NCBI GenBank assembly: GCA_030549175.1
Contig: JAUKUA010000008.1
Span: 682,001-746,000, forward strand
Source of the DNA: Lasiosphaeris hirsuta
Taxonomy: Eukaryota; Ascomycota; Sordariomycetes; Sordariales; Lasiosphaeriaceae
Reading direction: 5' to 3'
Length of the DNA: 64,000 bases
Under the pieces are notes generated by a model that made no database searches, was not told the origin of the DNA, and saw nothing but the letters and a program-made list of their open reading frames with translations. The stretch's first letter is position 1, and each line of letters opens with the position of its first letter. A program made the position numbers and the translations under genes. Positions 13,293 through 42,334 of this stretch are shown piece by piece.

Positions 13293-13437
13293 CCGCTATA
13301 AAGGAAAGAAGATTCACATTTGTGACTCCCTACCACTTCATTCGTAGGCAGAGTGTTGCGGCACATCCAAATATGCCATTTCTTGTATTATCTCGCAAAC
13401 GAATAGATATAAATATGCGACAACAACAAACAAACCA

Positions 13438-15222: not shown

Positions 15223-15929
15223 TGCTCTTATCGGGACAAACCTTTGGTCCTATTTGTGACGCGGGGAAAGGGAGTTTAAAGGTGATTTCTTCTGTGCTTC
15301 TTGTTGAATAGGGCATGGTGCGTTTCCACCATCAAAACCATGTGATTGTGCCGACCTCATCCGACTTGCATATCTCTGGCACATGCTGTGAAGGTCCCAC
15401 CCAATCCAGAACTTCCGGTGTGGTAGGACTGCCTTGGGGAAACGTTCTTGGCAGTGCCGGATCGGGAGGTGGTGTGGAGGGGCTTTTGGGAACCCATTCT
15501 GCTAAGCTCTTTGAAGTTTAGCGCAACACTTTTTTCTCGTCTAATTGGCCTAAGCACGCATATCGTAAGGAATATTCCTAGTCAACAATATGCGGGCTGC
15601 CGATATGTGGTATGCTTCTTTTGGAAAGAAATGAATAGTTACTCTAACCCTGGAGTCAAGGCGGACCGAAAGGATTGTTGTATATGGTACATCTATACCT
15701 CTCCTCTGTCAGCCACATGCCAAACCAACCTTGCATGCATGCAAATATGGATTCCGGGTATAGGGTGAGTCTCAGCGTCAGCTTCTGGACTAGAAAAATG
15801 ATGTGGACATGGTGCAAGTATAGCTGAGCTTTGCGTTGAGACTAAAAACCCGAGTCCAGTCTGGGTTCATTGATATACCAGTAACTGATTGGCTTCTTCA
15901 ATCCACCGGCCTTGTTCTCGAGCGAAACC
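15223..15929. other. Intergenic region between the two P450 genes
   Basis: Holds the promoter of the P450 starting at 15222 and the 3' flank of the P450 ending at 15930. No further gene or RNA recognised. Confidence 0.45.
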
Positions 15930-17661
15930 TTACAAAGTGTTATCCCTCTCCACCGGCCGCACGTTTACCCACAGCGGCGCTTTCTCTCGGAAGAGGGTGC
16001 ACTTAGCCTCTTCATGGGATACCCACTTCTGCGATTCGGGGCGAAGCTCAACGTCAAAATTCCAGAATAACTTCACCATCATCAGTCGCAGCTGGGTCAA
16101 GGCAAGTCTGGGGGATCCAGGATTATAGTTAGCCTCAGCTTATATTCAGTCGAGGAGAATGGTGAAGTTGGAAACCTACGTCCGACCAATACAGTCCATA
16201 GCACCTTTCCCAAAGGGCTGTGACGCACCCTTGCTGTCATGGGCAAACCTAGGGTCATTCTCCGCACCGGACAGCCACCGCTCAGGTAGATAGCTGTCGT
16301 ATTGGCCAAAATTACGAGCAAGGTGACCGCTAGCCCAGTGTGGGACGCCACATATTGTCTAGACACATTTATCACGCCTGTTAGTGGACTGAATCATTGG
16401 TAATGGGTAAAATATCAAGGCACAACTCACACCCTCGGGAAGAAAGTACCCCTCAACCCAATCACCCCCCTTGGGCGAGACGCGGGGGATAGGGCCTGAG
16501 AGAAAAGTGTGTTTGCGGAGGCCTTCCTGGATACAGGCCTTGAGATATGGCAGCTGCGCAATGCTCCGCATGGTAATATCCTCCTCTCGGGCAAAGGACC
16601 CTCGGATCTCGTCAACAAGACGCTTTTGAGCGTGTGGGGTGCACAGCAGCCAATAGCTAAGACCCGCGAGCGTGGTGGAGGCGGTTTCGGCGCCTGTTAG
16701 ACACAGCAAATTGGCCAATTGTGCGGCTTGATGGTGTGAGATGGGAGCACTGTCGGCCTGGGCGTCGCGCCAGATCAGCGACATGACGTCTTTGCGCAGA
16801 TGCGGGTCGGTCTTGATCCTCTCGAAGCGCGCAGTCACCTTGTCAAAGCTGATGACCTGCGTTTCGAACCACCGGCGCAAGAAGGGAAGCGAGACGGTAA
16901 TGCGTTCGATGAGCTTGCCAACTTCAAAGCGATGGAGGGCTTGGAGGAGCGCCAGGGGCTGAGCGCTTGTCTCCATCAGACGGATGAATCTGTGGGTGCT
17001 GTCGGTTTTCAGGCAGCCGAAGCCTTCGCCGAACGCTAGCTCGCCCATCATGTCGAATGTGGTCCACACAAAGGTCCGCTCCAAGTCGATGGGCCCAGTA
17101 GCGCACCGGCGGCGGAGCGAAGCGACGAAGTGGTCGCCGTACTCAAGGATAACAGGCTCCTGGGCCGTCAATGCTGACTCGGAGAAGCCTGGCTGGATTA
17201 AGCGCCGGAACATACGGTGCTCCTCCTTAACCGGCGAGATGATTGAACCTCGCGTGTCCATCTGCTGCAGCTCGAGAAAGTTGAGGTCACGGGGGAAGTC
17301 GCGCTTCCCTCCTGTCTTGTGGCCCGCGATGTCGTTCCACCCCTGGGCTGATGAGCACGACACTTCGTCTGGGCCGACACGGACTACATTGCCGTACTTT
17401 TCATGGAGATACTTGAGGTCAACCCAGTGTTTGCCGCGGACATTATTATTCCACACTTTTGGGATCCACGAGGCCGCGTACAGCTTAGGTCCTGGCACTT
17501 TGCTCAGAGGGTGGAACCACACGTTGCGGACAATAATGTATATGCGATAAAGAATGAACTGTGATCAAGGATCAGTGCTCAGCCATGGTTTGATATCGAC
17601 CGGTCAAAGTTCCTACCGTAGCAAGAAGCAACAAACTCAGCGTCGACTGAAAGGTGCTCAT
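15930..17661 (-). CDS. Cytochrome P450 (second), 509 aa, four exons
   Basis: Exons 17661-17617, 17558-16431, 16358-16180 and 16107-15930, all in phase. The first exon gives the membrane anchor (STLSLLLLATFILYRIYIIV) before FHPLSKVPGPKLYAAS. The I-helix motif is TGAETAS, the K-helix ExxR is EGLR, the PERW-type segment is YLPERWL, and the heme loop is FGKGAMDCIG. The intron at 16359-16430 contains two possible acceptors: only the distal CTAG gives TICGVPHWASGHLARNFGQYD and an open frame, while the proximal one would suggest a false frameshift. Same strand as the first P450 and divergent from the terpene synthase across a 1.2-kb shared promoter, so probably co-regulated. Likely oxidises the cyclised terpene. 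Confidence 0.9.
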
Positions 17662-18855
17662 GTTGCTCTTTGGCTTGTTTCAGAGATGAGTAGATCAATA
17701 TAAAGCAGCTTGAATGTTTCGATATACTGGATACACGCAGGAACTGAGTGGAGGGCGAGGAAGATGAGCGTGGCGAAGTTGGGGATCTAGTTTACCCCGA
17801 GGACTTACAAGAAGGGACGGGTAGGGCGCTGCATTTCTCCGTCCCCGCCTAACATGGTAATTCGTATCTCGGCTATGGGCAGCTGCAACTCCACCACCCC
17901 TTATCTTTGCTTCGAGCACACTCCCACATAAAATTGAAGAGCATAAATAATTGAAGGACCAGAATGCCCTTTCTGTCGCTGCCGTAGGGCGTTGTATGCT
18001 GGATCAGCCGACACTTGCATGGCGGATTACTTCCCCGACTTGGCGCAACACGGCGCTTCACCATAATTTGGCGACGGCTGAGCTTAGCTTTCAAACCAGG
18101 GGAACGCCGTGTGGCTGATTGATTGGGTAACCAGCCAGATATCCCGTAAGCCTCTCCCGCGCTTTGTCAGATCGCTACTCACAAGTGACCGAGGCTCGTT
18201 CACAGTGAGCGGCTCCTCGAGTATCTGTGCGCATCCTTACCGTTTACACAGTCGATAAGCATTATATGCATTGTGTTGCTGAATCAGGACCATATAGAAC
18301 GAGAGGGTAATGCTTCTTGAAACGTGTGCCCACTGGGGACCATTATAGTTGCTGCGTTATCGGGCAGAGAAGTGAGTCTATAGACAAGGCATTGTATGTT
18401 GCTGCAGACTAACGGCGTTTAATGCAACAGTGATATCGCCCCATCACCCGTGTCCGTACCACTTTGAAACGCAAGATTACGCGACCAGAGTGACGCCTCC
18501 TTATCTATGCTTCCTCAACACCCCCTCACGCCTAGCCCGCGGCATATCGCTACACACCGTCTCAACTCAAATGTTGTCTAGATCTAGGTATAATTTCCGT
18601 GAGGTGGTTACTCGTTCGGTCTTTATTTGCTTATCGCTATGAAGGTTGTGCTGATGAAGCGAAGTAAGTCCATCGGCGGTTGAGGGGTGCTTTGGCCCTG
18701 GTAATTTGCGATCATACGCGAGGCAGGGCAAGTCGAAATACACTTTTTGGGGCCCATATTCTCGAGGTTGTCCATCGACCCGCTGTAAATCCTCCATCTG
18801 CCAGCATTCTTCTCTCTTCGGCTCCCTGCCCCATTCGAACTGATATTTGATTACA
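17662..18855. promoter_or_regulatory. Bidirectional promoter between P450 and terpene synthase
   Basis: A 1.2-kb divergent intergenic region with no coding signal. It must carry the control elements of both genes. I found no repeated motif strong enough to name an operator. Confidence 0.5.
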
Positions 18856-21280
18856 ATGGATAACGACATCTTTGGACATTGCAAGGAGGTGGATCGGGAT
18901 CAACTCAACAAGAGCAAGTCGTTCACGATCCTGCCTGTTCGGATTCATACGCGCAATGATATTGCCGATGCCGCCTGCTTGGCCCTGAGCCGGGACTGGG
19001 GCTCGGTGGTGGGCGATGGGAGAGAGAAAATCTTTCACGGCGCAATCTCTCCCACGGGGAACTGGAACGCCTTCATCTTCCCGGAATGTCTGCCTGATCG
19101 TCTGGGTTTGATCTCTTATATTGGCGAGGTCGGGATGCTTCATGACGGTGAGTGCCCTCTGGCATTTGCTTACCTTGACTACCAGGTATGCAAGACTTAC
19201 ATGATGTCCTGTGATAGATGCCTGTGAGGAAATGAGTGTAGAAGAAGCCCGGACCGAACACGAGGCTCTTGCTACTGCTCTTGACCCCCAAGGAGCTACT
19301 AGTGCTTCAACGACAAAGGACACAAGGAACAACAAGCTCAAAACCCTTGTGTCGCAGGCCATACTCGAGTCCTTCCGGCTTGGCCACGGAGAAGCTATGG
19401 AGATGCTCAACATCTACCGTAATGAGTGGCTCCGGGTGATGGAGCATGACAACACGGATGATATCAAGACCTTGGATGAATACTTTTACCATCGAGCACG
19501 AAATGGCGGCATGGGGTAAGTTCTAAATAACTGGCCAAGAGACTCCAACCGTATTGACACATCTCATAGATCATACTGGAACTTGTTCAGCTTTGGTATG
19601 AACATTCGGCTGTCGGCCGACGACGAAGCCATGATTGCCGACCTCAAACAGATTTCCGAGCAATGTTTTTTATTGACAAATGACTACTTCAGCTGGGAGC
19701 GGGAGTTTGAACAGTCAGCCAGCCAAGACCAGGGCAAGGTCTTCAACGCTGTCTGGTTCCTGATGAGTAAGAATGGATTGACCGAAGAAGGGGCCCGCGA
19801 GCGTGTTAGATCCATGATCTCAGATCTTGAGGCCGAGTACCTCTCAGGCAGATCTAAACTATTGGCAGCTGGGGATGTGCCATCTCACGTGCGGAAGTGG
19901 CTGGGCGCATGCGCCGTGGCGATGGGAGGCAATCATTATTGGTGTTCCACCTGTCCAAGACAGAATGATTGGCACTCTGCTCCAAGACTTCCTCCCACAG
20001 ACCAGGTCTCCGTTGCAGAGCTCATCGGGTTGGCATCCCGGGACTCAGGGGCCAACTCCGGGGGACAGCAGAGACGCGGATACCCATCACCGGAATCAGA
20101 TCAGCCCACGCATCAAGGAGGTGATTCAGCGCCCACGATATCCCCAGTCGAACCCCCGAAGCAGCCCTCAAAGCGTCAACTTCCCGAATCCATGGCCGAC
20201 AACCCCGAACGCCTTCCGTCATCCAAGCGGCCAAGGAAGGGGGCCTTAGATGCTCCGGGCATGATCATTTCCCGCACAAACGCGGAAGACACTAGCGCTT
20301 TGGGCCCTGGTAGCGATGAAGGCCATCTTTCCGACACGGTCGTCATGGCTCCAACAGCCTACATCTCGTCTCTCCCCTCCAAAGGAGTACGAACGCTCCT
20401 CATCGAGGCCGTCAACACCTGGCTTGACGTACCTGCCGACGCCCTGTCCACTATTTCCTCCGTAATCGACTCGCTTCACAATTCGTCTCTAATGCTCGAT
20501 GATATTGAGGACAGCTCGCCCCTCCGTCGAGGCCACCCCTCCACACACGCCGTCTTCGGCTCGGCCCAGACCATCAACAGCGCAACCTATCTCTACGTCA
20601 GGGCGGTCACACGCATCATGACTCTCCACAACTCCACCACGGCGGTAAGCATTGTCCTCGAGGAGCTGGAGCATCTCTTCATCGGCCAAAGCTGGGACTT
20701 GTATTGGACCTTCCACTCCACCGTGCCGTCCCGTAAAGATTACCTGGCCATGATCGGCGCAAAGACTGGCGGTTTGTTCCGTATGCTACTGCGCCTCATG
20801 GCGTGCGCGTCGCCGTTGCTATCCGTGTCTGAAGCGGGCAGCTCATGGGCCGCCCGCCTCGACACACTTGCGCGCGCCGTGGGCCGCTTCTTCCAGATCC
20901 GTGACGACTACATGAACCTCGTCTCGGCTGACTACACAACCCAAAAGGGGTTTGCCGAGGATCTCGATGAAGGTAAATTCTCGTATCCTCTGATTGTGGC
21001 ACTGAGTGCATCAGGACGTGCTCGCGACCATGTACTGGGGATCTTGAGATCCAAGATGCCGGGGCAAACCCTTGCGATAGAAGCAAAAAGATATGTACTT
21101 GGCCTGATGGAGGAGACGGGCTCCCTACGAGAGACGGGAGAATTGTTGGCGAGCCTCGAGCATCAGATTGAGAGCGAGATTGTGGGGCTGGAAGGGCTTC
21201 TCGGACGACCGAATCCGATGTTGAGGCTATTGTTGAAGACGTTGAGTGTGAAGAGTACTTTAACTAGAACAGAGCGCTGA
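18856..21280 (+). CDS. Chimeric terpene cyclase-prenyltransferase, 766 aa
   Basis: Three exons (18856-19147, 19218-19515, 19570-21280) encode a bifunctional enzyme of the fusicoccadiene/ophiobolin F synthase type. Residues about 1-330 are a class I cyclase. The aspartate-rich motif DDACEE starts at residue 97 and is split by intron 1; the Mg-binding NDYFSWERE is at about 234. A long polar linker, rich in Pro/Ser/Gln, spans about 331-455. The C-terminal prenyltransferase carries DDIEDSSPLRRG (first Asp-rich motif, about 507), GHPSTHAVFG, and RDDYMNL (second, about 642), followed by GFAEDLDEGKFSYPLI. The PT domain should build GGPP or GFPP from IPP and DMAPP, and the cyclase should convert it to a polycyclic di- or sesterterpene. 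All metal-binding residues are present, so I expect an active enzyme. The ring skeleton cannot be read from sequence. Confidence 0.95.
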
Positions 21281-21629: not shown

Positions 21630-22855
21630 CTAGGTACTACCCCATTCTGGCCATGCCTTGTCCCCGCCATCTTTCTCATTCTTACTGCTGTTGCTGCTGG
21701 TGACACCAATACCTGCATTTAGGTCGACACCAACGCGCCGCAATAGCTCTATAATAGGCTCACATTCAACATAAGCTGCGGCATGCAACGGACTAATTCC
21801 CTCGTGGTTACGCACTTCGGGATCCGCACCCGCGGCCAATAACCTTGCCACTACCTCGACGTGCGCCCCGCCCGCGGCGTAGTGCAGTGCCGTTCTCCCG
21901 CAGCCGTCCGCCCCGTCAACATCTACTCCGTGGTCCAGCATCATCTCTACCAGGCGCACATTCCCGCGTTCGGCGCTCATGTGCAGGACGGTTTTTCCAC
22001 GGTTACTGTCATTCAAGCTGCAGCCACGGGCACCGACGACGTAGTTCAAATTCATGTTGAAATTATCTGTCGTTAGTGCCGTCGCGTTGGGCGAAAGTCC
22101 GTGTTGGGGTTTTGTTGTTGCTGGTAGTTGTGAGGGATGGGGGTCGAGGTCTGGAAGCGGGGAGACACATGATCCATTCTGTAGGAGGGTTTACTTGTTA
22201 GTTCATCTTTTGACATGTAATAAAGACACATATGTATTATGTGGGCGGGGAATAAACCATTGACGCCCGTGTTTCAGTGATGAAACGTTCCGTTGTTAAC
22301 TTAAGCTCGCATTGGCTAAGTATGGTATCCAAACTTGAGGTCTGGTTAGCTAGGGGGTTGATGGTGTTGATGCGCTCGTCATCTAGGTTAAGAAATGTGT
22401 TGATGTCCGCGAGGCATTCGTCGTCGCCGAACGGCGTGGGTGTCTGTGGGGTAGCTATCTGCGGGGTTTTGTCGCTAGGTGTCGTTTCTGATTGGGGCGA
22501 AATGAGATCAACTATTTGGTATTGTGGACTACTGATGCAAGTCTTGGTGATGCTAACAGCCCCACAAGTAGGGCAAGTGTTATTGTTACTCAAGTCGTTG
22601 CTGTTGTTTAGGATGCTAGCTGGCTTTGGTTCCGTTGCTGTAGGAGATTGGCGGCTTGACTTGTTATTTGTCTGCTGTGTTCCATGAAGAGCTGCGAATC
22701 GTTGTCCTTGACGATTTGATACTTTTGTTAATAACAATGGCTTTTAGAAATGAGTTCAGATGTAACTTGCTTCTTCTCCTCTGGGCGATGCGATTCTGGG
22801 CTCTTCTGCGCTCAATGGCCTCAATTGCGGCCTGGCCGTCCTTGGTCACCTCCAT
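21630..22855 (-). CDS. Basic-region/ankyrin (TOXE-like) transcription regulator, 365 aa
   Basis: Exons 22855-22771, 22721-22258 and 22178-21630; lengths and phases add up to 366 codons including stop. The N-terminus has a bZIP-type basic region, EAIERRRAQNRIAQRRR, continued after the first intron by ISNRQGQRFAALHG. No leucine zipper follows. The middle is Gln/Ser/Pro-rich, and the last exon encodes ankyrin repeats (GKTVLHMSAERGNVRLVEMML, GRTALHYAAGGAHVEVVARLL, GISPLHAAAYVECEPIIELL). A bZIP basic region plus ankyrin repeats without a zipper is the architecture described for TOXE of the HC-toxin cluster and for the apicidin regulator. Intron 1 (22722-22770) begins with GCAAGT, a canonical GC-AG donor; no GT donor gives an open frame. 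It sits between the terpenoid and RiPP blocks, so it is a likely pathway-specific activator of one or both. Confidence 0.85.
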
Positions 22856-24056
22856 GTATGCCGTGCAGTCTACTTCCAAAGTCCTGCAAACTTGATTGCC
22901 CCGATTCGCTTGCGTACGGAGTGAGTCGGGACAAAGCGCCTTATAAGATGTAAGCAGTTGGGCTGAGGTGTTTTTCGGCTAGGTCTACACATGGTCGAGA
23001 TTGCTGGACGATAGAATGAGGCGCATAATCACATGGAATATAGTTGACTTTAGCCGTATATATTTTATCCAGCCAGTCTTTGCTTGTTGCTGATTTCGCT
23101 TTGATTTGTCTTTCGCCATAGTGCCGCTGACACATGTGGCACAGACTCTGCGGAATAACTCCCATATTAAGCTCTACTCCTGTTGCTTATGTCTATCCCG
23201 TAAAAGTAAGGCAGGCAAGCGAGCTACGAGTATTACTCCATGATGACACCGATATGCACCGTGATTGATGCATGTTGTCGGTCATTTTAATCGAGGTCCT
23301 TCCTACAGTACTCGTCTCCTTCCAAGTCTAAACCCCAAAGGACTCAAAGCTCTGATCTCACCATCCATGTGAAACTGCGCCCTGTTTATATCAGCATTTG
23401 TTTACCTATTAGGTAAGTACCAACATAGTATGGACGGCGACAAGTATCTCCGTTTAAACACCACATCACTGTTTGGTGAGAGTTGTCCCAGACTTAATCT
23501 TTCCACCACTTCCAATTACCCACTACTGTGTACCCTGTATGTATGTTCCGTTCGTGTCATGCATGCCCACCAAATACTTCACAGTGCCCAGATAAGCAAC
23601 TATTAATTTACAGTAGCCGACACAAGCATCGTTCTCACAGAACAAGCAGGAGATGCCGGAGGCACAGAAGATGCACAAAGCACACAGGGCGGTGAGTGCA
23701 ATGCTTTGACTTGTCTGTGAATAGCGTGGGTGGCGTGAGTGATGTGCATGGGTGGCGTGGGCGGCGTGGGCGGCGTGGGTGCTATGGGTTTCAGGCCATT
23801 CTCGAGTTTGACAGCCAGTCAGTAACACCCTATCGATTGCATGGAAAGTACACACTATAGTTGTTGCAACGAGTTCTTCGCTGCCCCGGGCAGTATGCCA
23901 AAGTATTGGCGCGGTATCTGAGATTGGATTTGTACCATTGCAAGGAAATTTGTGTTGTTGTATGCCTCCTAGTTTGACAAGACTTATTTTTCCCACCAAA
24001 CTTGCCCCCCCCCCCCCCCCCCACAAGTTTCAGCTCGTTCCCAGCCTCAGTACAAA
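22856..24056. other. Intergenic region with GTGGCG repeats and a C18 run
   Basis: Contains short direct repeats of GTGGCGTGGGCG (about 23748-23782) and a run of 18 C (24005-24022) just downstream of the UstYa stop at 24057. The right end of this stretch is the 3' flank of that gene and the left end is the promoter of the regulator. Minus-strand frames here look like by-products of the GC-rich repeats. Confidence 0.45.
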
Positions 24057-25094
24057 CTAGCCAATCTCCCCAGCGCCAGAATCGCCTTCATCAGGGTGAT
24101 TCTCAAACCAGCCGTGTACCTCCTTGAACTTGTGCGACATGGCATGGAATGGATACCCTTCAGGCCTCCGCAGCTTTACAAACGCTTCCTCATCAAGCGC
24201 CTTTTCACGCTGCCAAGCAGTTATGGCATCAAAGTTCTTACATTGGTGCTCAATACTAAAGTCGGGAAATGGGTGATCCAGTGTGTCTGTCCAGATGTGA
24301 GTATACACATCCGTGTTAGCAGCACACATGATCTTCTGCGCAAGCAACCATACGCAGTGCGATAAATGGAGCTGGTGGATCTGTGTGGTGGTATTGAACC
24401 CGCCGGGGTACCCATGGGCATAGTAGTGATCCCAGCGTGCCTCGCGCCGGAGGGCATCCAGACAGTGGAGCTGGTGAAACACATCGATCCGCCCGAAATA
24501 GCTGTCGTTTCCGTGGCCCCATTCAGACGGGATCTTCACGGATAAATCCGGGTCCTTGCCAATTGCCATTACCTGCTCTCTTGTAAGGGGCACTGGTCGG
24601 GTATCGTAAAGCGACATCCATGCCTTGTCGACCTCAGGACTTGGCTCGCGACGGTAGATAATGGGTGGTTCTCTATTGAGGAGAGTTGCGTCCATGCGTT
24701 GGGGCGACATGCGGACATCTATGTCGTCAAGCAGGGGAGCTATGGTTGCTTTGATCAGACAGGCCTGGGTCAAACATAAAACATAAAACGGCTCACATGG
24801 CATCGATACAGATTTGAGGTGATAGTTTCTCAACTGCTCCTGAATGTGTTCGGTGTAGCGAAGAGGTCGTGGCTGTAGAGACATGAGAAACATCGTGCTC
24901 GATGTTATGAAAAAGACCATATTTAGCCAAATAAGGCACAACAGTGACGATCGAGATCTCGAGACATGGTGATATGGCTTCTGAGGCGTGACTAGCTGCG
25001 CAGACTCTTCGCTGGCTAGCCGTTCATTACTGGATCCGCTGATAAAGAGGTATTGCTCGTTATTGCGGGCAAAATTGAATAAAGATTTCATCAT
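24057..25094 (-). CDS. UstYa-family (DUF3328) oxidase, RiPP protein 1
   Basis: Start chosen at MMKSLFNFARNNEQYLF (25094); the 21 codons upstream are open but unlike the family. A cytosolic N-terminus precedes one membrane helix (LLCLIWLNMVFFITSSTMFL). The lumenal part carries both family motifs, HQLHC (in DVFHQLHCLDALR) and HLSHC (in LHLSHCVWLLAQKIMCAANTD). A 45-nt in-frame intron (GTATCG...CCCAG) may remove the odd segment beginning VSMPCEPFYVL. UstYa proteins are membrane-anchored oxidases that form ether or carbon cross-links in ribosomal peptides such as ustiloxin; the HxxHC motifs are the proposed metal ligands. All key residues are present. Probably acts on the precursor at 28278-28625. 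Confidence 0.88.
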   Translation of the reverse strand: MMKSLFNFARNNEQYLFISGSSNERLASEESAQLVTPQKPYHHVSRSRSSLLCLIWLNMVFFITSSTMFLMSLQPRPLRYTEHIQEQLRNYHLKSVSMPCEPFYVLCLTQACLIKATIAPLLDDIDVRMSPQRMDATLLNREPPIIYRREPSPEVDKAWMSLYDTRPVPLTREQVMAIGKDPDLSVKIPSEWGHGNDSYFGRIDVFHQLHCLDALRREARWDHYYAHGYPGGFNTTTQIHQLHLSHCVWLLAQKIMCAANTDVYTHIWTDTLDHPFPDFSIEHQCKNFDAITAWQREKALDEEAFVKLRRPEGYPFHAMSHKFKEVHGWFENHPDEGDSGAGEIG

Positions 25095-25409: not shown

Positions 25410-26187
25410 ATGGAGCACCAAAATCTTCACATATGCGTTACCCGCTTCGTACTTAGGCTGCTTCTCGTAACCGTGTGCGCTGCCTTGCTGGTGTCCTTGG
25501 TTTTCGTCAACGCTCCACACTTCGAGTTCCTGGCACGTTTCCAGGCTCCCAGCTCAGTACAATGTGAGGCACACACGACATGTCGCTGCAATCCTAACAT
25601 TCTCGGACCACAGGCCAGCACATTTCTATTGGAACTGGATCATGATACGACCAACAGCTCGCTCCTCCATCAACTTGGGAGGTACCAGGGAAATATATTC
25701 CTGCAGATGCAACAGAAAGGCGACGAGAAGCCGCTGCCCTACGGCATCTCCATGTTTCACCAGCTGCACTGCTTAGAGATGCTAAAAGCTGCTCTCCAGG
25801 GCAGCACGCCACATCCCTCGCGTAGCCGCCTTGGGGAGAGGGGAGGGTTCGAGCACGAAGAACACGTCAGCCATTGCCTGAAATACATTGCTCAGGTATG
25901 TCCGCCCACTGCTGACACCCGAGGTAGGGAGCTGCTGATTGTTGTATGATCAGGGGATCCTGTGCGCGGCCGATGATACCATCGAGTCATCATTCGCTTT
26001 CGAGACACGCCCTGGAAAGCACGTCCAGGTCATAAATGGCGACAGCATTGTCCACCAATGCAGACAGTCAGCCTTTATCTACGAAGCCGCAGTCGGTAGT
26101 CTAACACGGCCTCTTGTACTCCAGCGGGAGCTGAGAGATGGCGATACTGTGCGGGGAATTTTGGGCGATAAAAGTCTAGAGAATTGA
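25410..26187 (+). CDS. UstYa-family (DUF3328) oxidase, RiPP protein 2, 239 aa
   Basis: Exons 25410-25895 and 25954-26187, intron in phase 0. The N-terminal membrane helix is RFVLRLLLVTVCAALLVSLV. The motifs are HQLHC (GISMFHQLHCLEMLK) and HVSHC (EEHVSHCLKYIAQGILCAADD), both complete. The region between helix and first motif is shorter than in its neighbours. Divergent from RiPP protein 1 with about 315 bp between starts, so the pair probably shares a promoter. Expected to oxidise the RiPP precursor in the secretory pathway; the exact bond cannot be inferred. Confidence 0.88.
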
Positions 26188-26577: not shown

Positions 26578-27761
26578 TCAAGCTCCCCCAGCAGACTTCT
26601 GTCTTGCCTCCTCGGCCTCCTCAGGGTGATCCCTCCAGTACTGGAAGAAGGGATCACCGGGAAAGAACTTGTACTGATCCTCTATGCTCTCCCATGGGCT
26701 ATTATCGAAGCCAGATTGCTTGATGATCTCTTTGGCTTGCTCTGGCGTGACGTTGAAGTCCCAATTGGGTGCCTGATGCGACTTAGCCCACTCCTGAATC
26801 TTGGTGAAGTTGCGGCAGGTATGCGTTGTCGATAGGCGAGGCACAATGACCTTGTTAGACGGGACGTTGACTCGGAATGGAACAGGCGAGACATCGGCGT
26901 TGCACATGATAGCCTCGCGGATTGAGTCGATGCAGTGATCTGGCCATTTTTAGAATCATGACATGAGGGAGAATAAGAATGACAGAATGGATGACGGTGG
27001 GATCATGATACATACCCCAATGCCGAAATTCAAACGTGTCTCGGTCGATGGTCCCATTCACATCCGTCACTCCCGCTAGCCCAGGGAATCTCTCGGGGTA
27101 GAGCAGCATGCGAAGGTCGTTTAGGCAATGCAGCTGGTGCCACACATCAAGTTCGACCAGGTATTCCTTTGTGCCCGGGATTGCAAGAGTGGGGTGTGGT
27201 AGCAACTTTGCTTCTTCTTCCGTGATAGTAGTGATTCCAACTATGAGTCAAAATCTAGCATTAGTGCAAGTACACGTTGCATTTGGTGCCAATTTGTCCG
27301 TGCTTACAATTGTATAAGTCTTGCCAGAGCTTGTCGGTTTCAGCAGTCGGGTACCCCATATATGGCGTTTTCTCAAATAGAGCGGGGCGAAATTTCTTCT
27401 CCTTGATATACTCGATGGCTTTGTTGGCAGGTGCTGATTGTAATCCGTCAGCAAAAAATCAGATAATAGTAAATAAGTAGATTGGAAAAAAATGGAGAAC
27501 GTTGGAGAGTGCAGATATATACTTACAATACACCCCAATCGTTGGATCTATGTAACGTCGCTGTACTAGCTTTATCGCCAGGACGATAATGACAATCAAA
27601 AGGACGGAGTTGGACAAGTACAAAGTTAGAACGTGCGTGCTGGTACGGAACCAACGGCGACCCCGTTTTGGGAGGCTTAGGTTGCCGTAGATCAAACCTT
27701 CCTTCTCCGTCCAGGTAAGAGCATCGTCGGATAGGTCTGCGGATGAGCGTTGGGATGACAT
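26578..27761 (-). CDS. UstYa-family (DUF3328) oxidase, RiPP protein 3, 315 aa
   Basis: Four exons: 27761-27527, 27433-27308, 27240-27016 and 26939-26578, in consistent phase. One membrane helix (LSNSVLLIVIIVLAIKLV) follows a 45-residue polar N-terminus. The segment FEKTPYMGYPTAETDKLWQDLY is the usual pre-catalytic region. Motifs are HQLHC (DVWHQLHCLNDLR) and HWDHC (created across the last intron: FRHW/DHCIDSIREAIMCNADVSP). The C-terminus continues to PFFQYWRDHPEEAEEA. All family residues are kept, so it should be catalytically competent. Its start faces the precursor gene across a 0.5-kb divergent promoter. Confidence 0.9.
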
Positions 27762-28277
27762 GACTGATAATCAACTCTCTTGTGAGAGATGATACGGAAA
27801 AAGGAAGGAAAGCAAGGGACCACTGAATGAATCAAAGGAAGGATGCGGATTTTCAGCGCCGAGATACCGTGGTTCTCATCCGAGCTCCTCAAACAATGAG
27901 GAACATTCATCTACTGAACCCATCTCCTTACTTTCCAAATCTCGAGCCATCAGGGTAATTGGTGTCATCGGCGTCATCACACAAAGTGTGCACCTGTCAG
28001 CTGACTTGAATGTAATAACAATGCACATGGGTCACAGCGTACCTGGTTTTGCTTGACCCTTAATGTCATAGTGAGTGACAACATCACTAATCTACCCAAT
28101 GGTCAGCAGAAGAGATGATAATAGATATATGGCACCAACAATTGGCACTCGGTGAGAAAGAGGGCAGAGGTAAAGAATCCAAAAGCCCATCAGCCGCTTG
28201 ATCATCACCAAACCAGCAATACAAGTCATAATACCTCTTACACAATTCCTCTAAGTAGCTCGCCGCCAATATTCAAA
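27762..28277. promoter_or_regulatory. Divergent promoter of the RiPP precursor and UstYa protein 3
   Basis: No coding signal. A TATATGG stretch (about 28125-28132) and the leader before ATG (TTCAAAATG) belong to the precursor side. No repeated element recognised. Confidence 0.45.
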
Positions 28278-28625
28278 ATGAAGTTCGCCTACGCTCTCAG
28301 TTACCTCTTCGCCACGGTCTTGGCTAGCCCTCTTCGTGAGTCCAAACCCTCCAATATCAATACCCTAGGGTCCACTGCGTCTCTTGATTGCTAACCAGCA
28401 CGTCCGAAAGCCACTTCCCACACGGAGCATGGGAACGAGGCTCGCTCCGAGGATATCTCGGACACTACCGTCGACGTGCTTTCCGCGGCTCTCTACAGTG
28501 CGTGGACAGACCGAAAGGGTGATAAGTTGAAGGTTCGCTCTGAGGATATCTCGGACACCACCGTCGACGTGCTGTCCGCGGCTCTCTACAGTGCGTGGAC
28601 AGACCGAAAGGGCGATAAGAAGTAG
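28278..28625 (+). CDS. RiPP precursor peptide, secreted, two identical repeat units, 94 aa
   Basis: Exons 28278-28335 and 28399-28625; the 63-nt intron (GTGAGT...CTAACCAG) lies just after the signal peptide. Residues 1-17 (MKFAYALSYLFATVLAS) are a clear signal peptide. After a short leader, two 31-residue-period units start at R35 and R66 (RSEDISDTTVDV...). Each holds one Tyr and one Trp spaced as LYSAW (Y52/W55, Y83/W86), then TDRKGDK. The 28 shared residues are identical, while the DNA differs at four third-codon positions, all silent. This is the design of dikaritin precursors (signal peptide plus repeated cores) and it lies among six UstYa genes. Unlike known ones it lacks Lys-Arg sites; only Arg-Lys and single Arg occur at unit borders. 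The core is probably around the YSAW segment, but its limits are unknown. Confidence 0.85.
28443..28622 (+). repeat. Two coding repeats, 93-bp period, in the precursor
   Basis: Unit 1 begins at 28443 and unit 2 at 28536. Over 84 aligned coding bases they differ at TCC/TCT, ACT/ACC, CTT/CTG and GGT/GGC only, all synonymous. Constraint on the peptide, rather than recent copying alone, explains this pattern. Confidence 0.95.
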
Positions 28626-29001: not shown

Positions 29002-29771
29002 TTAGTCATGACATCCTAAACCCTCACCTGCACAGTGCATCTGCCTCCAAGTATCAAGCCCTTCCGGTCCGTTCCACAATCGACATGTGTGTCTCGCTCC
29101 GTATCCTTGCAGAAGTCCCGGCGTACCCGGATCTACCCCCTCTAGTGTTGAGTCACCAGCACATAGGATTGCCTGCCGAAGGTAGTCGAAACAGTGTTCA
29201 GCGTGTTCCTTGGCCATGGTGTAGTTCGAATCACCCATAACGGCTGCTACGTGACCTAGTTGAAGTTTCTTGAGGCAGTGTAGCTGATGGTGCGCGCTGA
29301 TCATGTAGACGTTTTCGGTTCCGGCTATGACGCCCTTGTTTGGGCGGAGCGAATATTCTTGTGGGTTGGGGATGTAGACGAACGCGGTAGTCTCTGTTCC
29401 GGCGTGTTAGCAGATGTTGGTCGAAACCAACTTCAAAAGTCCTCACCATAGTTCCGCCATGCGTTCTCGACATCCTTGATATGGCGCAGGCCGTGCATAA
29501 GACCGTCTCGGGTAAATTCTACTGTTTTCCATGGAATCGAGGGCACTGGTGTTGCCACAGGCAACAGTTTTGTGCTTCCGAGGGCGAACCATAGGAGATG
29601 GATGATTGCCGTGCTTTGCAGTAGGCAGAGAAAAAGCAAGATTAAGGATGACAAGTAGTAAAATTTTGCGTATTTGACACTATGGGGTGTCTTGGTTTTG
29701 GTCGATGTGCCCTCTGGGATGATGGGCTGGTACATAACGGGTGACGGTTTCCCGAGAAACTTGAACCACAT
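29002..29771 (-). CDS. UstYa-family (DUF3328) oxidase, RiPP protein 4, 238 aa
   Basis: Exons 29771-29447 and 29393-29002 (phase 1 junction). The membrane helix is YYLSSLILLFLCLLQSTAII. Motifs are HQLHC (ISAHHQLHCLKKLQ) and HAEHC (AKEHAEHCFDYLRQAILCAGDSTLEG), both intact; the sequence around the second motif is very close to the classical UstYa form. The C-terminus contains TCRLWNGPEGLDTWRQMH, where family members usually have a Cys-rich 'CRD' tail. The last few codons (GEGLGCHD) may be read-through of an unused splice donor. Confidence 0.9.
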
Positions 29772-30269
29772 TGTAGTTGCCTAGTGAACCGGAAAATCTT
29801 GGCTACAAAGGTGCTTAGTAAAGATATTAAAGGCGTATTGAAGGTTGCAATGAAAAATTGGCGGGGTATCTATGTGTACTACCTCTTTCTCTCATGACAG
29901 ACGGGTGCAGGTCAGCACACTGTCATCACGCTGTGCTCAGGCAGTTGTTTTCAACATGTTTCACTGCCAACAGGCAGCCAAAAAGCACCCCCCACCTTAT
30001 TAGCCTAAGGTGCACCACATCGGTAACCGATCCAATGAGGAACATGGCAGCCTGGACAGCCACCAAGGCATCAAGGTTTCCAGGCACCTAGGAATCCGGA
30101 CATTCAGGCGTCACGGGGCAAAGGTCAACAAACTTGAAGGAAAATACAATATAAAGATGGCAAAGGTCTGGTTATTTGCTCTTTCCACCACCAATATCCC
30201 CACACTCTTATAAACTATTTGCCTCGCATCAAACTTGTTATCCCAAAACTTTCTCGCCAAACCATCAAC
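29772..30269. promoter_or_regulatory. Divergent promoter, UstYa protein 4 and 30270 gene
   Basis: No coding signal; contains the starts of two divergent genes. The leader before 30270 (CCATCAACATGGCC) is a good fungal start context. Confidence 0.45.
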
Positions 30270-31001
30270 ATGGCCGCCGCCGCTGCAACTCCCGTCCGGT
30301 TCTCAAATGCGAATATCAACAGGTCCGCTTCGGCCCAGCAGTTCTCCTGGGAAAGAGGTGTGCCCGTGAATGCCTTCTGGGACGGCATTGATTGGGTCTC
30401 CAGTATCCATTTCCTCGGCAACTTCTCCGACGAAGAACGTTTGGAGCTTCCCATTGACCCCGACAGCACTGCTAGCACCAACGACAAAGTCAAGCTCCTC
30501 ATATCTCTCCTAGGTGCCAAACTGGCTAAGGATGAAGCCACTGCCGCTCCGAACTCGCTGGCGGAGACTCAGCCAAAGGCTTGGCGCAGTCTCGTCCACG
30601 CCAAGTACGTCCTGCAGTCAAGGCTGGGCTTGGTTGCCGACGCCGGACAAAGCATTCGTAGGCTTGTCGAGCATTTTGGGGACACAGACGATGTGCTGCA
30701 GCAATCCTTGGCCGATCAGCTTGTCAAGGAGGGTGACTATGCCCAAGCTGAGAAGATTATGGGTCCCGTTGTCGCAATCTTGGATTCCGAGATGACCAAG
30801 GCTTCCCCTCAGGCCATCGGCAGCCGGAGGTCCTTATTGAGCGCCATCTGGAAGCAGGGTCCGTCAAGGCGGGCGGACGCCGAAGAAGTTGTGGCTGAGA
30901 TCAAGCAATCAATCCAGGGAATGGTGGGAACCAAGTACGACGTTTACGTGAAAGCCGAGGAGGAGGAGCTCGACAAGGTTCTTGCAAGGCTAGCCGAGTG
31001 A
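30270..31001 (+). CDS. Unknown intronless cytosolic protein inside the RiPP cluster, 243 aa
   Basis: Start at MAAAAATPVRFSNANINRS because the context is far better than the in-frame codon at 30219. No signal peptide or membrane helix. The first 60 residues contain an aromatic-rich stretch (FSWERGVPVNAFWDGIDWVSSIHFLG); the rest is helical with paired-helix spacing (AKYVLQSRLGLVADAGQSIRRL, LADQLVKEGDYAQAEKIMGPVV) resembling TPR-like repeats. I do not recognise a catalytic motif. It is flanked on both sides by UstYa genes and is clearly intact, so it may be a cluster protein, for example a scaffold or precursor-handling factor, but this is inference from position only. Confidence 0.7.
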   Translation: MAAAAATPVRFSNANINRSASAQQFSWERGVPVNAFWDGIDWVSSIHFLGNFSDEERLELPIDPDSTASTNDKVKLLISLLGAKLAKDEATAAPNSLAETQPKAWRSLVHAKYVLQSRLGLVADAGQSIRRLVEHFGDTDDVLQQSLADQLVKEGDYAQAEKIMGPVVAILDSEMTKASPQAIGSRRSLLSAIWKQGPSRRADAEEVVAEIKQSIQGMVGTKYDVYVKAEEEELDKVLARLAE

Positions 31002-31078: not shown

Positions 31079-32013
31079 TCATAATGGACCCGATTTTACA
31101 AAAGGAACACTGCCACTACCTCCCCACCATAGGTTATCCATCGCGACGTGCTTGATGCCGTTTTGCTGTGTCCACTCTTGTATCCGCTCAAAGTCGCGGC
31201 AACGTTGAAAAGTCCCAAAGTCAAACACCAGTCCGCGATTGGTCTTCATTGGGTCCTCCATCGGGGTTGTGTAATATCGGCCGACTGGGGTCACGTCGGA
31301 CCAGCACTAGTTGACACGTTAATGTCAGCTTGGGCATCAAAATAAACAAATCTTAAACTGACCATGAAAGCCTGGCGCAGCCGCTCTGCGCACTGATATG
31401 TCCGTTCCCAGACGAGGGATTCGTTGCCCTTGAAGGCAGCGAGGTTACTGTAGTCACGATCTAGTCGGTACGCCGTTTGTCGCATAAGATTGAGGCAGCC
31501 CAGCTGGACGGCGTATTCGGGCAGTGCCAACACAGAGTCGGGATTCCGCGGATCTCGAACCCACGCCGGATCGTCAACGGCCAAGCTCTGGCCAAGGTCC
31601 TTGAGACGGGAAGACGGGATTGAGATGGGATGTTCTAATTATGTAAGGCATCACCATCAGCTTGCTTTTTTCCCTCTCTTCTCTCATCTTCTCATCTTCT
31701 TCAAATATTGACAAATCCTGGTCTTGAAGCACGTACGGGGAAGCAAATCAATCCAAGCTTGCTCGATCTTGTCTGTTGGTACGAAGCCAAAATAAGGCGT
31801 CTTCACAGCAAATTGCACATTTTCGAATGTCTCCCAGTGATATTGGATACTGTCGACAGCGGGCGACCACGGGTAGGTATGGAAGTCGCATTGCCTATCG
31901 GTAGGCACAAGGAAAATGGCAGAGAGGAAAACGGCGCAAGAGCAGAGAAAGAGCAGAATCGACAACACCAACCCCAGGTCCATTCTATGCTTGGGGCTGT
32001 TCAGCTGCATCAT
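31079..32013 (-). CDS. Degenerate UstYa-like protein without HxxHC histidines, RiPP protein 5, 258 aa
   Basis: Exons 32013-31737, 31634-31363 and 31306-31079 are open and in phase. The membrane helix is LVLSILLFLCSCAVFLSAIFLV. The fold is recognisable: TPYFGFVPTDKIEQAWIDLLP, then YAVQLGCLNLMRQTAYRLDRDY where HQLHCLNxLR is expected, then RTYQCAERLRQAFMCWSDVTPV where HxxHCxxxLRQxIMCxxDVTP is expected. All four motif histidines are replaced (V-QLGC and R-TYQC), while the cysteines and surroundings are kept. The absence of stops argues for selection for a non-catalytic role, such as partner subunit or peptide binder, rather than decay. Divergent from UstYa protein 6. Confidence 0.85.
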
Positions 32014-32445: not shown

Positions 32446-33495
32446 ATGGAGTGGTTTAAGAAATTGTGGCCAGGGAAACAGGGGGTTGTTCACAGTGCCT
32501 TACCCGAGACCCCGAGCGAGGTCGAGGCTGCACTCCCGCTACTTGATGAGAAAGACGGGGACTATGGAGGACAGCTAAGTGCTGGAAGAGATAAAGCACT
32601 CAAGTGTGTGAGATTACCGCTTCTCAACCTCGCCATATTTGTCGTCTGCCTGCTCTTCTACTCATTCCGCTCTTACACGGCAGCGACAGACGCAGCATGC
32701 GAAAAGAAGATGTGGCCCTCTAGTATGCAGACCGTTTGAGAATATCTGAATGTGGCTAACACGACCCCAAAGGCCCAGAGCGTGGCATTATAGGATTTGA
32801 AAAACGTCAGTACGACTCCGATGTGATTCCTCGGGAGTATTTTGGACTACCTACTGCCGAGCGCCGCGTCGCTTGGGATCGTCTGTGGCAAAGTAGGTCC
32901 AAGCTTCAATTCTCCCCGACATAGTCACAAATCTAATGCAAGAGAAAATGATAGCGGGCTACTTCCCCTTCCCCATCTCTAACTTCGCCCTGGTCAACAA
33001 AACAACAAACCCACTCAACTGGTGGCGTTTGCCGCCTCCACGACAAGACGAGGCCTTAGTAACGTCTGATGGTACGTCGCCCCATACCAGGTACCTGGGA
33101 AGTGACTTAGCATCTGACCACCACCCCTGGGGAACCCTTTCATAGCAATGCACCAAATCCACTGTGTCCAGGGTCTCTGGAAGTTCATGCACCGCAACGA
33201 ATGGGATAACGCCAAGACAAAGGAGAGGAAGACTTTCCACGCAATGCACAACCGTCATTGCAGTGCCTACCTGCTGTCTATTTTGAAATGCCGCGCCGAC
33301 GTCACGCCCGTTTTGTTCCAGCATGATGATTCCGGGTTTGGTGTGTGGAAAACACGAGATGCACCGCGTCGTTGTCGCAAGTTCGACACCATGTACGAGT
33401 GGGAAAACCGGCATAGAATCTGTCCCGAAGTTTGCACCGAGACGAATAGGGGCAAATCATCGATATGTTGTTCGAATTTTCATAGCGCTACTTGA
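32446..33495 (+). CDS. UstYa-family (DUF3328) oxidase, RiPP protein 6, 291 aa
   Basis: Four exons: 32446-32722, 32773-32892, 32943-33071 and 33146-33495, with every junction in phase 1. The membrane helix is LPLLNLAIFVVCLLFYSF after a 55-residue polar N-terminus. The region PERGIIGFEKRQYDSDVIPREYFGLPTAERRVAWDRLW is typical. Motifs are HQIHC (SDAMHQIHCVQGLWKFMH) and HNRHC (HAMHNRHCSAYLLSILKCRADVTPV), both complete. The C-terminus has CRKFDTMYEWENRHR. Probably the rightmost RiPP-cluster gene, followed by repetitive DNA. Confidence 0.9.
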
Positions 33496-34562
33496 TTCTT
33501 AGGTATCTACTTTCAATGTCCATCGGCTGTGTACTAGTTTTGCGTTGAGGCCTGAAAAGGATTGGCCACCAAGTCTTGAGGTCTGAAGAGGACCGTCGCG
33601 CCTACACAGCATTGTGGGGCTAGAGGTTGTTTCTCTTTTGCTTGTTTCATGAGCCTACAGCACGTCTTTGGCTTTAGGGGTCTCACCTTGCAACTTGGAA
33701 TGTAAGATACACTTTAATATATTAATAGCAGCCGATGGCGTCGGGAGCCATTTGTGGTCCGCTGAGTCCCCACAGACAATCCCACCTCATGTAGCGTACA
33801 GGTAATGCTAGGCTGTCGGTCTTACTCCTACTAGTTAGCAGTTTGGTAAGCTGTGCCATGATACAATGGGTGCGCAATATAAGCCGCGCCGCCTCTATAG
33901 TATATAATATTTCTTCTTACCTATAGTAATTCTAGAATAGAGACACTGTCCCCACAAGTAGCTAATTGAATCAATGATTTTATCACTTCTTTATCCACTT
34001 ATTGCTTACAGTTGTTACCACACTTGGGCCACAACTGTGCTATACCTGTGGCTCTCTTATCTCCATGTTTTACATTGCCCTTATAAGCCTCAACACAACT
34101 AACCGGTGAGTTCCTGATAAGGCAACAGGTATAACTTAAAGTTGGACATGGAATATGGTAACGTACATACATGATAAGCGAGTGTCGCACTCTAGCAAAA
34201 GCTCAGTCCCCTCAAAGAGGGAAACCCTCATATATAGTTATATAGTTCTCAGATAATTACTCTGACGGCATGAGTTAAAATGTCATATTTTCAGAGTGTG
34301 CTAACCAATATGGCTACTGAAATATTGATTAATATAATGTTAAGCACATATGTTCATACTTCTAAAACCTTTACACCGGCACATTCTCAACCATATACTC
34401 ACCGTTGACTGTACTAAAATCTAACATATTTCTATGAGAAACTAGGCACTTTCAATGTTAGACTGATTGATGTACGCGTATTAAACCTTTTCACCTGAGT
34501 ACCTATTTAGTCTGCGTATACAACTGGTACTCACTGGCACATTTCCCTTCATCTGACACCAA
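33496..34562. mobile_element. Degenerate repetitive DNA, retrotransposon interior and element end
   Basis: AT-rich, no convincing frame. Next to LTR B, the minus strand reads TTGGTGTCAGATG, a plausible primer-binding site, so the region left of 34562 should be the retrotransposon interior. Positions 34158-34190 carry the repeat end shared with 9829-9857. No protein motif could be read. Confidence 0.45.
34158..34190 (-). repeat. Dispersed repeat end, matches 9829-9857
   Basis: Reverse complement contains GTGCGACACTCGCTTATCA followed by a stretch ending TACGTTAC, as in the pogo-like remnant at 9.8 kb. Confidence 0.6.
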
Positions 34563-34993: not shown

Positions 34994-36345
34994 TTACAAG
35001 GAGAAAACAGCCTTGGGGTACTCTAGCAACTCTAACATCTCTGGCTTGGTAGAAAACTCTTTGGCTAAAAAGTCACACATTGCCGGTCCTTCGAGATGAG
35101 CACGTCGCCATATCCACCACTGATCTAATGACAACGCTTTGGCATACCAATACAACAACAAAAGCATAGCCGACGGGTCACGGTCAGCCAGCAAACGTAC
35201 GTATCTCGGATCAGGAAATCCGACAAAGGAAAGAAACTTTGAGACCGTGTTCCTGTTGATCTCAAGAGGAATGATCTGAGCTAGAAGGGTAGCCGCGGTG
35301 TGATAGGGATTGCTTGTTGGTGTGGAAAACTCATCCAAACCATACAGCTCGATGAAGATAGGGGGCAAATTAAAAACTTCATCGCCTACATTTGCCGTTG
35401 GCTGGATGAACTGAGCCAAAGTACTCGTTATGGGGACCCTGCCCGATGTACCTTGCTTCCTGATAGGATTGGAGAGCTCAATGATAGCCTGCTTTCCGCT
35501 AGTGAGTTTGAGCCAGCTCAGATCGTCGGCCGAGGGAGGAGTGAGGGGCCAAGATTCGTCCATTCTTGTGGCCGTGATGTCGGCAAAGGCGGACGTCGCT
35601 GTTAAGGCGGCGGCAGGCCACAGTGCATCCCTTTCGTGTGGATCGATAGGTCGGGACAGTTTCTTATTGAAGAGTGTGGTGCCATGGAAGTAGTGGTAGG
35701 CCAAAGCAACAGTCTTCCTTCTATCTGACGCACTGGCGCTGTGAATATCGTGAATAAGTGTTAATGCGAGGACCATGTGCATCAGGAAAGGATTCTACTC
35801 GTTGGTCAGTAAGCCACTGGGGAGATGTCCATTTTGGGACTAACTAACAGCAATTGCTTCCTTTATTATTTCTTGTTGGAAAAGCAGGGATAAATCCTTG
35901 GGCCCAACAGTGAGAATGTTGGTGTGTTGAAACCTGCTCAGGAGAGCCATATCATGACGCTTCATTTCATACATTGCGATACCTTTCTCCTTGGCCAATG
36001 GCAGCCATATCGGGACTGGCTGTACGGCTCTTGGTATTGGAATCGCCCGAGCACCTGGACCGGGACTAGGACCGAGGTCGACTTTGAAGGCACCAGCAAA
36101 CGCAAGCTGCATTTGGGTTCCTGCTTCAAAGCTGCACTTCAAGCCATGTGATACGCATTTCCCGCACTCTGGTTTCGTCTCATCACACTAGGTACTATTA
36201 GTGCCATTGGGCGTCGATTGAAGCGGATGTTAAGCAGGAATTATACCTTGACTCTGCGGACTTTACAGTTGGCGCAGCCGTATCTCGACTTGCGGTGTTC
36301 CTTGCGAACTCGTGTTTGGTGGTTGGGCCGTTCCAACAAAGACAT
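34994..36345 (-). CDS. Zn2Cys6 transcription factor, 412 aa
   Basis: Exons 36345-36247, 36187-35849 and 35794-34994 in phase 0. The binuclear zinc cluster spans intron 1: GCANCKVRRVK joined to CDETKPECGKCVSHGLKC, giving C-x2-C-x6-C-x6-C-x2-C-x6-C. The rest is the fungal-specific regulatory domain of the UPC2/sterol-uptake type (LLSRFQHTNILTV, then NPFLMHMVLALTLIHDIHSA and AYHYFHGTTLFNKKL). Start chosen because MSLLERPN precedes the basic segment RVRKEHRKSRYG. It lies between the retrotransposon and an MDR oxidoreductase in divergent orientation; it may regulate that enzyme or the RiPP cluster. Confidence 0.88.
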
Positions 36346-41175: not shown

Positions 41176-42187
41176 CCTAAGTTGGTGATAAAAAGAGAGA
41201 CTGTCACTGCCCTAGGGGTCGGAATAGATGGGTGGCTAGGTAACGGCACAGGAGTGGCCCAAAATAAGGCACACAATCGCTCAGGCTGGCTGAGGTTAAG
41301 GAGGCAACTGCTCAGTTCCGAAGAAAAGGGAAATTCGTGGTGTCGATTTTAGGGTTATATACCGCCTGTATCCTCGGCCTAGACCCATAATATTGCGATA
41401 AACTTATCCCTGCGGCTATACATATACTCGGCCGTAGTCTCAGTCTTCCCAATCCCACCCATACCGCACAATAGTTCGACGTAGATCCGGTCGGGCTACG
41501 TGTAACGCTATGGGGCGTCAAGATAACAAGGATAGGGGTTGGCACTGCAAGGTGGTGGAACAGATTGTTGGTGTTAGGGGGTTGCAAGAAGATCAATTGA
41601 AGCCTGGCCATTCCTCTGAACAGAGGAGAACTAGTCACTCTTTTTTATGTGCGAGGACCTTCTTGGATTTGGGAGGGTGTATTGCGGGTTCTTTGTGGTC
41701 TGCCTCTCAAATCCTCCCGGGCCCCGCGCGCGACACGGGAAGGTGTTTTATTTATCTAGTGTTCTGCACGCTCCCGGGGGAGTCCACGATGCCTACACTC
41801 ACAGGTATGTGTTACAGCTATATTCAATCGCTCTCATGCTCGCCGCCTATCTCTTCCCAGACAGATCTAATTATTGTACCCGCTTTCAGTCCTCTCAGCT
41901 CCTTTACCAGCAGGCGCAAGTGGCTTCTCGTGCTGATCTTGAACGGGCCAAACTCCTGAATCTCCAGCATGTGGGTTACATCGGCGATCGGTGGTAGGAC
42001 TGCAGCCGGTGTAGGCTTAAACAAGTCATTAATATAAGCATCAGTGTAGGAGCTTATGCTAATGAAGACCTCGTCTACGTCCTAGGCGATCATAAGTGTA
42101 TGGTGGAAGGGGTCTGTCTCTCGGTGCTGCAGATGCCATATGAGTATATCTTGCGTGTTGATCCGGTTGCCGGTGAGAGTTACTCAC
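41176..42187. other. No supported gene
   Basis: Several overlapping short frames without family signal. Possible distal exons of the minus-strand gene ending near 42188 may lie here, but I could not join them. Confidence 0.35.
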
Positions 42188-42250
42188 CTCGCGCTCCTCT
42201 ATCTCCCAGATAAATGCTGCATGTTCCACAGTTTGTTGAGCTCGGACGGA

Positions 42251-42334
<84 letters not shown>

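Follow-up and report, generated by a model that had tools for sequence, protein, structure and literature searches.

Dikaritins have been described as peptides derived from Kex2-processed repeat proteins (KEPs) and cyclised by UstYa homologues (PMC10512285), whereas in another definition, quoted in PMC12048977, it is the UstYa protein itself that defines the class. In ustiloxins, phomopsins and asperipin-2a the linkage is reported at Tyr (PMC7329392) and, in the same survey of 7,878 repeat precursors, the UstYa gene count across fungi peaks at the position adjoining the precursor, and repeats that have a UstYa neighbour are enriched in Tyr (65.6% vs 38.2%) and not in Trp (20.5% vs 24.5%). Proteins with the DUF3328 domain have been implicated in hydroxylation, halogenation and macrocyclisation; one of them, the cyclochlorotine hydroxylase CctR, is a copper enzyme of Golgi, endosome and vacuole membranes, in which the two HxxHC motifs together build a binuclear copper site (PMC12435403). 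As for the precursors, a KEP has been required to have at least three tandem repeats of at least 8 residues between KR/KK/RK/RR sites (PMC7329392) or, alternatively, to give at least four fragments after cuts at KR/RR or KK (PMC6339444).

The locus described here lies in a 64 kb stretch of DNA of Lasiosphaeris hirsuta, a member of the Sordariales (C13:682001-746000; hereafter the window, meaning the whole stretch that was analysed), which belongs to a genome of 44.4 Mb on 14 contigs, also searched. We consider it a credible orphan RiPP locus, in which two UstYa genes, U3 and U4, directly flank a repeat gene whose start resembles a signal peptide, inside a run of six (PF11807 matches and gene models). 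The features, in positions of the window, are the following:

24057..25094 (-): U1, UstYa gene, HQLHC and HLSHC motifs
25410..26187 (+): U2, UstYa gene, HQLHC and HVSHC motifs
26578..27761 (-): U3, UstYa/DUF3328 gene, modelled with four exons; motifs HQLHC and HWDHC, of which HWDHC is split by an intron
27762..28277 (no strand): upstream stretch of 516 bases common to U3 (-) and the precursor (+), which lie head-to-head
28278..28335 (+): precursor exon 1, with the start codon and a signal-peptide-like stretch, MKFAYALSYLFATVLA followed by S (sequence, identity with the NCBI record, hydropathy)
28336..28410 (+): precursor intron, 75 nt, running from a GTGAGT donor through a CTAAC branch site (28391-28395) to an AAG acceptor (splice/codon model and NCBI protein)
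28411..28625 (+): precursor exon 2, with the remainder of the leader (TSHTEHGNEA), two units and the stop (splice/codon model and NCBI protein)
28443..28526 (+): unit 1, 28 residues, RSEDISDTTVDVLSAALYSAWTDRKGDK, with YSAW at 28494-28505 and RK at 28512-28517
28536..28619 (+): unit 2, 28 residues identical to unit 1, with YSAW at 28587-28598 and RK at 28605-28610
29024..29771 (-): U4, UstYa gene, HQLHC and HAEHC motifs
31291..32013 (-): U5, UstYa homologue, VQLGC and RTYQC in the motif places, 62.9 bits against a cut-off of 25
32446..33548 (+): U6, UstYa gene, modelled with five exons and an uncertain 3' end; motifs HQIHC and HNRHC
34997..36187 (-): probable Zn2Cys6 regulator, Zn_clus at 23.4 bits against a cut-off of 21, second frame without Pfam match

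The splice/codon model resolves the precursor gene (28278-28625, plus strand) into two exons encoding a protein of 90 residues, identical to the NCBI hypothetical protein B0H67DRAFT_650144 of L. hirsuta, with the acceptor at 28410; start, splice sites and stop are all intact. An alternative acceptor at 28398 is less likely, because it lies only 4 nt beyond the branch-point A. The hydropathy of the N-terminus peaks at 1.91 over 11 residues and a VLA-S pattern would fit cleavage, and the protein is probably secreted. The signal-peptide-like start, the intron and the two units are thus found where the first-pass annotation had placed them. The Pfam profile scan gave no match to the precursor.

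The repeat has a period of 31 residues, and RSEDISDTTVDVLSAALYSAWTDRKGDK is present twice. Each copy contains one Tyr and one Trp, three residues apart (YSAW), and no other aromatics, so that the core of the peptide is both repeated and aromatic. It had been claimed that the units are identical in residues and differ by four silent third positions only, under purifying selection. The two units do differ at 4 of 84 bases, every difference being a silent third position, an outcome which random change would give with P 0.0034-0.0068 (transition weight 1-5), while the codon directly 5' of the unit, GCT in one case and GTT in the other, changes the residue from A to V. Since all four unit differences are silent, selection acting on the unit residues is supported, within one gene only. 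On one side the units are bordered by EAR or KVR, ahead of SED, and on the other by RK, which follows the aromatic part; the dibasic pairs of the precursor are the RK of each unit and a KK at the C-terminus only, and KR and RR are absent from the whole 90-residue sequence. When all 941 open frames of at least 40 residues in the 64 kb were scanned for repeats, three frames outside low complexity scored at or above the cut-off of 14, all of them over the precursor repeat (one sense, two antisense), and no other repeat qualified. A simple trinucleotide-type repeat, giving homopolymers in six frames, was observed at 42062-42695.

The gene has also been called new, and the searches agree with this. 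In a database of 5.8 billion proteins, one of 120 candidates reached E ≤ 1, and it was the precursor's own NCBI record; a query made of six unit copies, with scoring restricted to the 7,998 candidates that had most words in common with it, found no relatives, longer ones included, at E ≤ 10, and no second copy was seen in the L. hirsuta genome. The precursor is therefore an orphan at the sensitivity of the protein searches used. No mention of a peptide with LYSAW, YSAWT or AALYSAW was found in the open literature by word-start search, and of the 20 papers with match-anywhere hits for LYSAW or YSAWT, the 10 listed have only the letters 'ysawt', apparently from the bacterial gene name cysAWT.

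The six UstYa proteins share 20-29% pairwise identity, hence U1-U6 are not recent tandem copies. Both HxxHC motifs are found in five of them (U1-U4 and U6), which look catalytic by these motifs and share with CctR the family and the motif pair. By contrast, the substrate of CctR is a non-ribosomal peptide. In U5 all four histidines of the pair are replaced (V/G and R/Q), while both motif cysteines are kept. Since the paired HxxHC forms the copper centre in CctR and is absent from U5, the latter is probably non-catalytic, a candidate pseudoenzyme, which may act as a non-catalytic partner of the other UstYa proteins; a six-UstYa cluster of this kind would be a test case for catalytic/non-catalytic DUF3328 pairs. 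For U3, 97 of 1,566 candidates were relatives at E ≤ 1e-20, the best four, from the distant Ascomycota Penicillium, Aspergillus, Podospora and Parachaetomium, having 64-67% identity over 96-100% of U3. In an alignment of 16 sequences (U3 and 15 of the 97 relatives), H158, C159, H194, H197 and C198 were invariant and H155 nearly so. U3 is, thus, a member of a widespread enzyme group, while the precursor beside it is an orphan. No solved structure matched U3 in sequence at E ≤ 0.1, and none of its relatives was on a viral contig. The probable Zn2Cys6 regulator, which borders the run on the right, presumably belongs to the cluster. Between U4 and U5 there is a coding-looking frame (30138-30998, plus strand), with no Pfam match.

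As in the ustiloxin, phomopsin and asperipin-2a systems, UstYa genes adjoin a precursor that has repeats and a signal-peptide-like start, each unit contains a Tyr, and there are UstYa proteins with paired HxxHC motifs. Ustiloxin clusters contain an S41 peptidase gene. A tyrosinase is required in clusters of the ustiloxin/phomopsin type, according to PMC7329392; neither a tyrosinase (PF00264) nor an S41 peptidase (PF03572) was matched at E ≤ 0.001 in C13:682001-746000 and, for this reason, the L. hirsuta locus is not of the ustiloxin/phomopsin layout. No Pfam match to a peptidase was seen in the 43 distinct open frames scanned in the window, a scan that may miss short exons. Moreover, the L. 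hirsuta precursor has two long units, whereas 16 repeats are given for the ustiloxin precursor (PMC10512285), it has no KR/RR spacers, its aromatic motif YSAW is different, and its UstYa genes are six, against two, five and one for ustiloxin, phomopsin and asperipin-2a, respectively (PMC7329392). The sole Tyr of the unit stands in LYSAW and not in a core of the YxI type, as the ustiloxin/phomopsin-type cores are given in PMC7329392, in line with what had been said of the core at first reading.

With the KEPs the precursor shares the signal-peptide-like start and internal repeats edged by basic residues. On the other hand, it has two repeats where PMC7329392 asks for three, and it has no KR/RR and a single KK, at the C-terminus, where PMC6339444 asks for four fragments; it is not, then, a textbook Kex2-processed repeat protein. 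The enzyme-based definition, for which we found six UstYa genes, five of them with both HxxHC motifs, fits the precursor as far as tested, and the KEP-based definition does not, which is why we call it a variant. Of the dikaritin-type precursor proposed in the first-pass annotation, what stands is a repeat gene with a signal-peptide-like start among UstYa genes; the lack of KR/RR and the presence of only two repeats do not fit the proposal.

We estimate at about 0.78 the probability that the gene encodes a RiPP precursor modified by UstYa enzymes, the enzyme context being what makes it dikaritin-like, and the peptide derived from it is probably undescribed and modified. In favour of this reading are the repeat gene with a signal-peptide-like start, the six UstYa genes, the HxxHC pairs and the silent-only differences between the units, as well as the NCBI listing of the protein and the repeat precursors found elsewhere in the genome near UstYa genes. 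Against it are the absence of KR/RR, the presence of only two repeats, the failure to find an orthologue in other species, the use of DUF3328 enzymes in non-RiPP pathways too, the lack of significance of the repeat-frame excess near UstYa genes (see below) and the nearby terpene synthase and P450, so that some of the UstYa genes might serve another product.

According to the mechanism that we propose, the precursor would enter the secretory pathway, where UstYa enzymes, anchored in the membrane and with their binuclear copper centres in the lumen, would act as oxidases on both units; the likeliest site is the Tyr of YSAW, and its Trp may be another. A processing protease would then cut at the basic residues bounding the units, namely EAR/KVR before and RK after, and exopeptidases would trim the pieces, so that small oxidised or cyclic peptides would be released. 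The weakest step of this scheme is cleavage at RK; a Kex2-type P domain is found at one locus of the L. hirsuta genome, and one survey (PMC7329392) includes RK among the Kex2 sites.

The chemistry within the unit is more doubtful. Because the linkage of ustiloxins, phomopsins and asperipin-2a is at Tyr, YSAW would be the natural place for a ring; since repeats with a UstYa neighbour show no enrichment in Trp, a general role for this residue is disfavoured, and the same survey counts lower the odds of a Tyr-Trp cross-link in each unit, which by analogy we regard as possible and rather doubtful. That UstYa copper enzymes could join Tyr and Trp in two long units free of KR/RR, with an enzyme set including the candidate pseudoenzyme U5, is likewise a tentative proposal at no better odds. 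In the open literature we found no precedent for a Tyr-Trp link made by UstYa, and we do not claim its absence from print. Epichloecyclins (GigA) and victorin are similar in having a multi-copy repeat precursor and side-chain cyclisation, and different in that the links are Tyr-Ile and Phe-based, respectively, with no Tyr/Trp pair mentioned in the available part of PMC9233826. If the Tyr-Trp reading were true, the chemistry would be similar to that of the plant copper-dependent burpitide cyclases (PMC12435403, PMC12186524), and the product would be a fungal RiPP variant outside the published repeat-precursor filters. The Tyr/Trp-containing cyclic peptide of the first-pass annotation is, in this way, narrowed to a credible RiPP locus, with the Tyr-Trp ring as a guess.

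Alternatively, the gene could code for a small secreted protein or a linear repeat peptide, of effector, pheromone or surface type, left unmodified by UstYa neighbours that are there incidentally. The long units of 28 residues, the lack of KR/RR sites for Kex2 and the lack of a Pfam match would all suit such a product, and 6120 of 7878 repeat precursors (78%) have no UstYa neighbour in PMC7329392. We judge it unlikely, in view of the 516-base upstream stretch common to U3 and the precursor, of the place of the latter between U3 and U4, of the Tyr and Trp in both units and of a divergence that is silent only across the whole unit.

A very improbable explanation, in our opinion, is that the UstYa genes act in a mixed cluster together with a chimeric terpene synthase and a P450, or some other non-RiPP product, the repeat gene being minor or unrelated. 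An ankyrin-repeat frame (21633-22190) separates the terpene synthase from U1 and the run extends to both sides of the precursor, which argues against it, even if the terpene synthase frame (19520-21277) and the P450 frame (16362-17564) are nearby and DUF3328 enzymes are known to act also in non-RiPP pathways, in polyketide and non-ribosomal peptide clusters (PMC12048977). Finally, the failure to find an orthologue would fit a decaying or chance repeat, born by recent tandem duplication in a non-functional frame; with four of four unit differences silent (P about 0.003-0.007), with start, splice sites and stop intact and with the precursor listed by NCBI as a protein, this is scarcely believable.

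Other genes were observed in the window to the left of the run. The chimeric terpene synthase (19520-21277), composed of a polyprenyl synthetase and a terpene synthase C-terminal domain, and the P450 (16362-17564) are 2.8 and 6.5 kb from U1, respectively, and an MFS transporter frame is at 12036-13289 (all by Pfam); the region 12036-21277 is perhaps a separate terpene cluster. At 21633-22978, on the minus strand, the ankyrin-repeat frame is preceded by another frame, unmatched in Pfam, where visual inspection shows a bZIP-like basic stretch; the pair is reminiscent of the bANK regulators of fungal metabolite clusters. Farther to the right, NB-ARC/DUF7779 and TPR frames of NLR-like type are found at 51662-53390 (minus strand).

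In the whole genome 41 UstYa matches were counted, 8 in the window, 30 in 18 other stretches and 3 (on C1, C11 and C14) outside the scan. A qualifying repeat frame was present in 9 of the 19 UstYa-bearing stretches, the window included, vs 1 of 5 controls, an excess that is not significant (Fisher P 0.36; 8/18 without the window, P 0.61) and that is to be read knowing that both the score cut-off and the low-complexity filter postdate the first scan, that the control stretches were chosen at round coordinates and that the window is longer than the other stretches. On visual inspection, the L022 frame is of low complexity and rich in Gly and Tyr, and the control match is a long coiled-coil-like frame. 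The repeat frames of interest near UstYa matches are the following:

L012:3082-3765 (-): repeat frame with two UstYa matches nearby; its units (WLGIGGQTCTKAACY, period 83) contain Cys
L016:1880-2782 (-): repeat frame with dibasic sites, near a UstYa match
L017:3199-3726 (-): repeat frame with dibasic sites, near a UstYa match
L018:8068-8436 (+): repeat frame with dibasic sites, near a UstYa match
L019:2361-2852 (+): repeat frame with dibasic sites, near a UstYa match
C9:647938-648348 (-): L020 repeat gene, frame at L020:2938-3204 (C9:647938-648204), units AEVAPPPTEELWKFTNWDFSWD and AEVAPPADEELWKFTAWDFSWD
L028:2522-3328 (-): repeat frame with dibasic sites, near a UstYa match

By eye, a signal-peptide-like start was recognised at L017, L018, L019, L020 and L028, seemingly with an intron just after it at L018, L019 and L020. 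The L020 gene is similar to the window precursor in its signal-peptide-like start, its intron and its two units (period 30, Trp-rich), with a UstYa match about 1.6 kb off; unlike the window precursor, it has RR sites. The precursor, and L020 by its repeat count, fall short of the three-repeat filter and yet sit near UstYa genes; mining that starts from UstYa could therefore add precursors that are now missed.

Homology of the window unit to the two L020 units was rejected (shuffle P 0.97 and 0.17). Nor do we claim a leader shared with the L028 precursor (PTSHTEHGNEAR vs PMVHTGHAGVEAR), for which P was 0.026 after the signal peptide and 0.006 over the whole stretch, both uncorrected and from the best of five comparisons. 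The leaders of L017 and L019 gave P 0.015 and 0.013 over the whole stretch, a similarity probably coming from the common hydrophobic start. EAR was seen before each L028 unit and before most L016 units, as before unit 1 of the window. Finally, at C11:3845137-3859710, with no qualifying repeat frame in L013 or L014, several UstYa matches were observed together with a tyrosinase match (3856711-3857442) and a borderline S41 peptidase match (3854439-3854645; 24.0 bits, equal to the cut-off), a layout like that of ustiloxin/phomopsin-type clusters.
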